NCBI GenBank assembly: GCA_021825585.1
Contig: JAKAGT010000010.1
Coordinates: 1 to 64,000, forward strand
Source of the DNA: Bacteroidota bacterium
GTDB taxonomy: Bacteria > Bacteroidota > Ignavibacteria > Kryptoniales > JAKASW01
Direction of reading: 5' to 3'
DNA: 64,000 nt
Numbering within the stretch: position 1 is the stretch's first letter; each line of letters begins with the position of its first letter. Under the pieces are notes generated by a model. That model had not been told where the DNA came from. It saw only the letters and a list, made by a program, of their open reading frames with translations, and made no database searches. Position numbers and translations under genes: made by a program. Shown here piece after piece: positions 7,037-7,749 of this stretch.

Positions 7037-7110
7037 GGGCACGTAGCTCAATTGGATAGAGCGTTGGCCTCCGGAGCCAAAGGTTGTGGGTTCAAATCCC
7101 ACCGTGCTCA
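7037..7110 (+). tRNA. tRNA-Arg (anticodon CCG)
   Basis: A full 74-base cloverleaf can be drawn. The acceptor stem is GGGCACG with CGTGCTC (one G-T pair), the D-arm GCTC/GAGC, and the anticodon stem TTGGC/GCCAA around loop CTCCGGA, giving anticodon CCG. The T-arm is GTGGG/CCCAC around TTCAAAT (7091-7097), and the discriminator is A7110. CCA is not encoded; the next bases are CGAAATG, the start of a GIY-YIG gene only 4 bases downstream. The last 17 bases (7094-7110) recur twice further on, which ties this gene to the cassette array. Confidence 0.97.
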
Positions 7111-7114
7111 CGAA

Positions 7115-7360
7115 ATGTACTATACGTACGTGTTGAGGAGTCTGAAGGACGGGTCTTACTATTACGGATCCGCTGAAGATACCGGAGTTCGGGTGAGACA
7201 ACACAACCGTGGCAAGGTCAGGTACACGAAGGGGCACAGGCCATACGAGCTTCATTACTTGGAGGGATTCTCGACGAAGAGCGAGGCCTTGAAGCGGGAA
7301 AAGTTCTTTAAATCGATTGCAGGTTACAGGTGGCTCAGAGAACAAGGGATAATTCACTGA
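7115..7360 (+). CDS. Small GIY-YIG nuclease, cassette copy 1
   Basis: A protein of 81 residues matching the small single-domain GIY-YIG family (UPF0213/YhbQ-like). TYVLRSLKDGSYYYG holds the two aromatic motifs, followed by an Arg in VRVRQHN and a candidate catalytic Glu in SEALKREK. The ATG lies 4 bases after the tRNA discriminator base and no Shine-Dalgarno sequence is present. Removal of the tRNA by 3' processing would leave a nearly leaderless message. The reading frame is also open upstream through the tRNA, but that part is tRNA, not protein. Differs from copy 2 by one residue (Val for Leu in the VRxRQHN motif). Confidence 0.85.
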   Translation: MYYTYVLRSLKDGSYYYGSAEDTGVRVRQHNRGKVRYTKGHRPYELHYLEGFSTKSEALKREKFFKSIAGYRWLREQGIIH

Positions 7361-7430
7361 TTGTGGGTTCTCCCTCACGAACTCTTCGAGTTCGCGAAGG
7401 ATCCCTTCGGGAAAATCCCACCGTGCTCAC
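7361..7430 (+). repeat. Split T-arm remnant with hairpin insert, copy 1
   Basis: The T-arm 5' strand TTGTGGGTTC (7361-7370) and 3' segment AAATCCCACCGTGCTCAC (7413-7430) copy the tRNA exactly. They are separated by a 42-bp insert at 7371-7412. The insert holds a 7-bp hairpin CGAACTC/GAGTTCG (7378-7394) and a 4-bp hairpin TCCC/GGGA (7402-7412), both with a TTC loop. GTGGG-TTC-TCCCTCAC can form a third. The stretch thus reads as a row of TTC-loop arms resembling the T-arm. Confidence 0.85.
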
Positions 7431-7433
7431 GAA

Positions 7434-7679
7434 ATGTACTATACGTACGTGTTGAGGAGTCTGAAGGACGGGTCTTACTATTACGGATCCGCTGAAGATA
7501 CCGGAGTTCGGCTGAGACAACACAACCGTGGCAAGGTCAGGTACACGAAGGGGCACAGGCCATACGAGCTTCATTACTTGGAGGGATTCTCGACGAAGAG
7601 CGAGGCCTTGAAGCGGGAAAAGTTCTTTAAATCGATTGCAGGTTACAGGTGGCTCAGAGAACAAGGGATAATTCACTGA
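7434..7679 (+). CDS. Small GIY-YIG nuclease, cassette copy 2
   Basis: Tandem duplicate of the gene at 7115-7360 (81 residues, one substitution: VRLRQHN here). It sits 4 bases after a copied tRNA 3' segment (AAATCCCACCGTGCTCA at 7413-7429), so the tRNA-gene spacing is preserved in the second unit. Same family motifs and no Shine-Dalgarno sequence. Near-identity indicates a recent duplication or ongoing homogenisation. Confidence 0.85.
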   Translation: MYYTYVLRSLKDGSYYYGSAEDTGVRLRQHNRGKVRYTKGHRPYELHYLEGFSTKSEALKREKFFKSIAGYRWLREQGIIH

Positions 7680-7749
7680 TTGTGGGTTCTCCCTCACGAA
7701 CTCTTCGAGTTCGCGAAGGATCCCTTCGGGAAAATCCCACCGTGCTCAC
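7680..7749 (+). repeat. Split T-arm remnant with hairpin insert, copy 2 (array end)
   Basis: Same 70-bp arrangement as at 7361-7430: TTGTGGGTTC, the 42-bp hairpin insert, then AAATCCCACCGTGCTCAC ending at 7749. Beyond this the sequence departs (AAGTACTG instead of GAAATG), marking the outer boundary of the array. The region from there to 7882 shows no gene. Confidence 0.85.

Follow-up and report, generated by a model that had tools for sequence, protein, structure and literature searches.

A candidate family of tRNA-targeting cassettes built from a minimal GIY-YIG nuclease gene and a hairpin module in bacterial chromosomes

Intronless homing genes of fungal mitochondria supply their host gene with a replacement 3' end, and the old end is displaced downstream. 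SegB, a GIY-YIG enzyme of T-even phages, cuts within tRNA genes at the preferred motif RAWTSGAAC, and tandem amplification of the tRNA locus requires both SegB nuclease activity and recombination proteins (PMC13096335). Fungal mitochondria also contain double-hairpin elements, two adjacent short GC-rich stem-loops that are considered mobile and lie near genes, including those for tRNAs (PMC4618339). Small GIY-YIG proteins are further represented by the UPF0213/YazA family, for which we found no report of a position next to tRNAs in the open-access literature. Here we describe a cassette in a 64,000-nucleotide stretch of DNA from a Bacteroidota bacterium (contig JAKAGT010000010.1; the whole stretch is referred to as the window), documenting its anatomy, its recurrence, its presence/absence and copy-number variation, the co-occurrence of its hairpin with its nuclease, and the constraint on hairpin structure. 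The open-access literature searched yielded no description of cassettes at bacterial tRNA genes that combine a GIY-YIG gene with a second, hairpin-bearing tRNA copy.

The array lies on the + strand and starts at its left end with an intact tRNA-Arg(CCG) (7037-7110; ARAGORN, Rfam 73.4 bits). Two cassette units of 319 bp follow (unit 1, 7094-7412; unit 2, 7413-7731), each composed of a tRNA 3' segment, a GIY-YIG nuclease gene, a T-arm 5' segment and a double hairpin. Their sole difference is position 7193, which is G in unit 1 and C in unit 2. Both genes encode 81 amino acids; gene 1 (7115-7360) starts 4 nt past the tRNA and its ORF matches Pfam PF01541, while gene 2 occupies 7434-7679. Each gene is followed by the T-arm 5' segment of a second tRNA copy (TTGTGGGTTC; 7361-7370 in unit 1, 7680-7689 in unit 2) and by a 42-bp double hairpin (7371-7412 in unit 1, with hairpins at 7371-7401 and 7402-7412; 7690-7731 in unit 2). 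The tRNA 3' segment of the second copy (AAATCCCACCGTGCTCAC) spans 7413-7430, and a distal 18-bp copy of this segment (7732-7749) closes the array. The order is therefore intact tRNA, gene, T-arm 5' strand, double hairpin, and T-arm 3' strand with the acceptor end. The last three parts form a second copy of the T-arm end of the tRNA, trimmed in the window to T-arm and 3' end and interrupted between T-loop C56 and R57, whereas the T-loop of the adjacent intact tRNA-Arg(CCG) is uninterrupted.

The tRNA, the two units with their single difference and the 18-bp end copy agree to the base with the original prediction, which had described the insert as one hairpin and the end copy as a remnant. The insert length holds, but the insert folds as two adjacent hairpins, and the 18-bp piece is the regular distal tRNA 3' copy that closes such cassettes, not a broken leftover. 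Three features had been missed: the distal piece is a second tRNA copy, which some relatives have almost in full; the double hairpin of the insert is conserved and shows compensatory changes; and GIY-less hairpin copies occur in the T-loops of other tRNAs.

The locus resembles the SegB system in its free-standing GIY-YIG gene beside tRNA genes and in its tandem amplification. It differs in that the phage gene has a C-terminal region past the nuclease, whereas the window's gene encodes 81 amino acids and lies in bacterial chromosomes, and in that the window cassette comes with a second tRNA copy, a hairpin module and derivatives that lack the GIY gene. With the intronless homing genes it shares a host gene kept intact by an element-supplied 3' end, although the target here is a tRNA and the displaced copy carries a loop hairpin. 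The fungal double-hairpin elements, compared by form alone, are likewise two adjacent stem-loops near tRNAs; those of the window are bacterial and are tied to a GIY gene and to one tRNA-loop position.

An ORF check of the cassette units gave no plausible gene besides the GIY-YIG gene. The predicted lack of an integrase was borne out, as no PF00589 match to a tyrosine integrase was found anywhere on the window contig (C9). With regard to a group I intron, Rfam matches only the tRNA at the locus, and the tRNA is intact. A 102-codon frame (7052-7360) opens inside the tRNA and spans the GIY gene, and gene finders may give the GIY protein a tRNA-encoded N-terminus (GFKSHRAHE...) from this frame.

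The window protein, which matches PF01541 at 1.4e-14 (window ORF), consists of the catalytic domain only, with no obvious separate DNA-binding domain. Its nearest solved structures by profile are UPF0213 proteins (1zg2, 4.8e-14) and SLX1, and it resembles the UPF0213/YazA proteins in size and domain. Residues Y5, Y16, G18, R26, H30, and E62 are conserved in 98-100% of 124 tRNA-associated proteins; dS was saturated in the dN/dS comparison. In a tree of 171 proteins (74 usable columns), GIY lineages follow tRNA isotype across host families, with 43 isotype changes against 88 in shuffles (minimum 82), a clustering that near-copies inflate. As an internal control, five non-tRNA GIY genes of the window's genome together with two from other genomes form a clade of their own (support 98), and this separate clade marks a difference in the comparison with UPF0213/YazA.

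The members of this clade (G000 contigs C57, C3, C73, C87 and C50, loci L111-L115, with L223 and L232) are surrounded by palindromic repeats, which include ones of the GTCATTCCCG...CGGGAATCC type. Their flanks (600+600 nt) hold 2-12 perfect hairpins, with at least 4 in 5 of 7 loci, against 1.7 (sd 1.2) in the window. This is possibly a second nuclease-palindrome partnership.

When the window protein (P0001) was searched by tblastn against 50,697 phage records at 1e-5, seven were matched, all unannotated, from Staphylococcus, Listeria and one faecal phage; none was T-even, and thus no sequence relation to the T-even phages that carry SegB was found at this threshold. Plasmid relatives amounted to one yazA, and viral contigs gave no relative. 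A phage or viral origin was rejected, given the lack of viral-contig relatives and the few, distant relatives in phages or plasmids.

A search of other genomes for the cassette at tRNA ends had been proposed, and the cassette recurs there. Using a profile built up from the window GIY protein, we found 155 GIY genes in the window's genome and 60 relatives (61 genomes), with 118 lying within 700 nt and 88 within 150 nt of a same-strand tRNA and one near an antisense tRNA; random placement would predict well under 1% (about 47 tRNAs in 5 Mb). Among the 88, 76 are downstream of a tRNA, 14 upstream, and 2 both. Fourteen of the 37 GIY genes without a nearby tRNA have a contig or locus end no more than 400 nt away. 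In extra loci from genome contigs of several phyla, 32 of 59 GIY genes have a tRNA within 150 nt, and in loci drawn across the phylum the same holds for 17 of 29 with a same-strand tRNA, mainly tRNA-Ser. The arrangement occurs at more than 12 tRNA isotypes, in several phyla and in two mirror-image orders. The order tRNA-GIY-second copy is found in most relatives of the window's host, and the order second copy-GIY-tRNA in most Candidate Phyla Radiation (CPR) cases and some Ignavibacteriota.

A second tRNA copy lies beyond the gene in 94 of 118 pairs, compared with 8 of 118 in a mismatch control that aligned every tRNA with loci of different isotypes; at a stricter score these counts were 80 and 1. 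The second copy is nearly complete in L019, L020, L022, L118, and L127. At many loci the GIY gene starts 0-13 nt past the tRNA, so both are likely on one transcript, and gene and tRNA are probably transcribed together.

Second copies mostly carry hairpin inserts, located in the T-loop, D-loop or anticodon arm, and some bear hairpins in two loops. Across 54 distinct inserts of at least 14 nt, 66% of bases are paired versus 44% in shuffles. The window insert belongs to a 42-44-bp double-hairpin type, TCCCTC...GAGGGA followed by TCCCnnnGGGA, and leaves the surrounding T-stem pairing intact. In hairpin 1, 7 of 13 pairs show two-sided changes that preserve pairing, which exceeds all 500 shuffles and every slid version. 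Covariation thus gives two adjacent structure-conserved stem-loops, a likeness to double-hairpin elements in form only.

Within the genus, the double hairpin sits at C56/R57 in second copies of tRNA-Arg(CCG), Arg(TCT), a CAT tRNA, the tRNA ahead of Gly(TCC), Ser(TGA), and others; it is also found in Ser(GGA) of two Ignavibacteriota MAGs. Some arrays have the hairpin and no GIY gene. In the window's genome (G000:C33, about 4975-5405, L140), at least three hairpin units of 116 bp, none with a GIY gene, stand behind a tRNA-Arg(TCT) in an array that contains an assembly gap, and G006 contains four GIY-less units of about 146 bp. Single GIY-less copies also exist.

G006 further contains, on contig C20 at 766-10960 (L108), an apparent type III restriction-modification island that also holds ATPase-like and TIR-like genes, a gene for a large serine recombinase and a tRNA-Arg(CCG) of its own, the genes being named from translations alone. 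This island abuts a hairpin-bearing tRNA-Arg copy at the D-loop.

Among the 61 genomes searched for both features, exactly three (G000, G004, and G006) have the T-loop double hairpin, and these are the ones with a GIY relative of at least 80% identity. The chance of this split among the 13 genus genomes is 1 in 286, a figure that ignores shared ancestry, and G006 may mix two strains. Two distant genomes outside the 61 (G247 and G248) combine a T-loop double hairpin with GIY relatives of 71-73%. The remaining 146 class-sample genomes showed no real T-loop double hairpin, with the protein search covering part of the 146, and matches in G010 and G294 came without the hairpin (G294 judged from the matched sequence only). 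Among the genomes searched, the T-loop double hairpin is therefore confined to those with a GIY relative of at least 70%, which favours movement of the hairpin by the nuclease but falls short of proof.

We also considered whether the hairpins are dispersed repeats. A REP/BIME-type palindrome was rejected, as the hairpin pattern matches tRNA T-loop copies and rare chance matches, and so was a genome-wide palindrome, as TCC...GGA hairpins are unenriched in the window (2 versus 3.3 in shuffles). The sequence TCCCTTCGGGA is enriched genome-wide (23 versus 2 in the reversed control), several copies being unrelated single hairpins. The CPR cassettes L064, L067, L070, L077, and L079 have another long palindrome in common (CCCGCCCGC...GCGGGCGGG, in either orientation), which lies within the D-arm region, or close to it, in the second copies of tRNA-Thr, Met, His, and Lys. 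With only 0-2 copies per genome, it was likewise rejected as a REP-type repeat.

The original prediction had called for a comparison of sites with and without the cassette. Nine genus members have no cassette at the orthologous site, which lies between lolD and a patatin gene; in two near-identical strains, that of the window and one other, the site is filled. The other strain has one unit instead of two, with flank differences of 0/500 and 1/500 bp, and comparable arrays occur in independent assemblies, including the single-contig chromosomes G048 and CP067379 (three copies each). The tandem copy is thus unlikely to be an assembly artefact, a concern raised at the outset. In CP067379 (L088), the complete chromosome of the cultured species Flavobacterium covae, three GIY units stand behind three copies of tRNA-Met, which makes this locus well suited to comparisons among isolates. 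The window tRNA has A57 and reads GTTCAAATC where empty sites have GTTCGARTC or GTTCGACTC; this variant was considered as an element-borne or cut-resistant change and rejected, since most other filled tRNAs have G57.

The closest gene relative beyond the window site, 80% identical, is accompanied by a closely similar hairpin at tRNA-Ser(TGA) in G004, where the tRNA pieces are Ser-derived. The core can therefore occupy different tRNAs, with the tRNA-derived parts matching the local tRNA. In this Ser(TGA) cassette (L016 and L082), AGG stands in place of the window gene's ATG, and judging from the sequence the gene may be dead or may use another start.

Taken from the sequences, these patterns incline us to see a family of mobile elements that target tRNAs. 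Each would have two working parts, a structured hairpin module and a minimal GIY-YIG gene, and would spread in a homing-like manner. The earlier suggestion of a tRNA-associated cassette that has its joints in the T-loop and encodes nothing but a nuclease finds strong support in the recurrence, the empty sites, the change in copy number and the conservation of the catalytic residues. An inactive remnant, offered at the time as the alternative, is unlikely, as the catalytic residues are kept at dozens of independent loci.

A passive origin would also account for part of these data. A GIY gene that landed by tRNAs long ago could have been amplified through unequal recombination of tRNA repeats, the hairpins being terminators or processing signals of dead tRNA copies. 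Tandem arrays with tRNA direct repeats are classic substrates of unequal exchange, GIY-less arrays are known, and isotype clustering could partly reflect vertical inheritance. We nevertheless regard such hitch-hiking as unlikely, because the catalytic residues are conserved, the arrangement recurs at more than 12 isotypes in several phyla and both orders, and the hairpin follows the GIY subfamily. Moreover, the hairpin enters different tRNAs exactly at C56/R57, and its fold is kept by compensatory change.

An RNA-level system, which we consider improbable, would have the GIY protein act on the tRNA or the transcript, with the hairpin-bearing copy serving as a resistant decoy, a processing signal or an autoregulatory element. 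The likely single transcript at loci with a 0-13-nt spacing and the preserved T-stem pairing around the insert fit such a system, and the covariation is compatible with RNA as well as DNA structure. However, known GIY-YIG enzymes are DNA nucleases, the nearest solved structures are UPF0213 proteins and SLX1, the window's second copy, limited to T-arm and 3' end, cannot make a full tRNA-like fold, and the presence/absence and array variation would be left unexplained. A decayed tyrosine- or serine-recombinase island at a tRNA, reduced to att repeats and one cargo gene, is highly improbable: T-loops are known recombinase crossover sites and the serine-recombinase island on G006:C20 adjoins a hairpin-bearing tRNA-Arg copy, but the window contig has no tyrosine integrase, the minimal layout recurs at very many loci with units that have no recombinase gene, and att repeats explain neither the hairpins nor the loop-interrupted second tRNA copies.

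In a homing-like cassette, the nuclease would cut tRNA genes in a loop, here the T-loop at C56/R57. Repair of the break would draw on a copy that bears the cassette, through recombination, or proceed by unequal sister exchange; it would leave an intact tRNA beside a hairpin-interrupted second copy, bringing in the gene and the hairpin. In the second copy the hairpin would split the target and thereby prevent further cutting. Because the tRNA 3' end is directly repeated, successive rounds of cutting and of repair between its repeats would let the tandem array grow or shrink, and the GIY-less hairpin units would be non-autonomous, mobilised by the nuclease in trans. T-loop cutting by the GIY-YIG protein, already part of the original prediction, gains plausibility from the published SegB motif, since RAWTSGAAC complements the T-loop sequence GTTCSAWTY; the window joints fall in the corresponding sequence.

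The main difficulty lies in the intact tRNA. Classical homing elements destroy their own target site, whereas the T-loop of the adjacent tRNA is uninterrupted, so a T-loop nuclease should still cut the cassette allele. The hairpins that other subfamilies have in the D-loop or anticodon arm, and those in two loops of some copies, are also not explained by one cut site. Further points against this reading are that the protein has no obvious DNA-binding domain beside the catalytic one, and that the co-occurrence within the genus comes from three genomes, G006 among them.

We file the cassette under homing-type elements as the most likely assignment because of its likely way of working; it may also be a class of its own. 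More tentatively, the comparisons raise the possibility of a mobile-element class in which a GIY-YIG nuclease spreads a double hairpin, in cis and in trans, into tRNA loops. The target tRNA would be duplicated so that a working copy remains, hairpin-only partners would accompany the nuclease, and lineages would be specialised by tRNA and loop in Bacteroidota-type and CPR bacteria.

If the reading as a tRNA-targeting cassette is true, it would tie a nuclease to the spread of double-hairpin elements; to our knowledge, no enzyme has been assigned to the mobility of the mitochondrial ones. It would extend SegB-like tRNA cutting and locus amplification to bacterial chromosomes and explain the many small GIY-YIG genes behind tRNAs. 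About 300 bp, made up of a catalytic domain, a hairpin and borrowed tRNA ends, would be enough for a self-spreading element, and the cassettes would offer a testable route to tRNA gene duplication and turnover.
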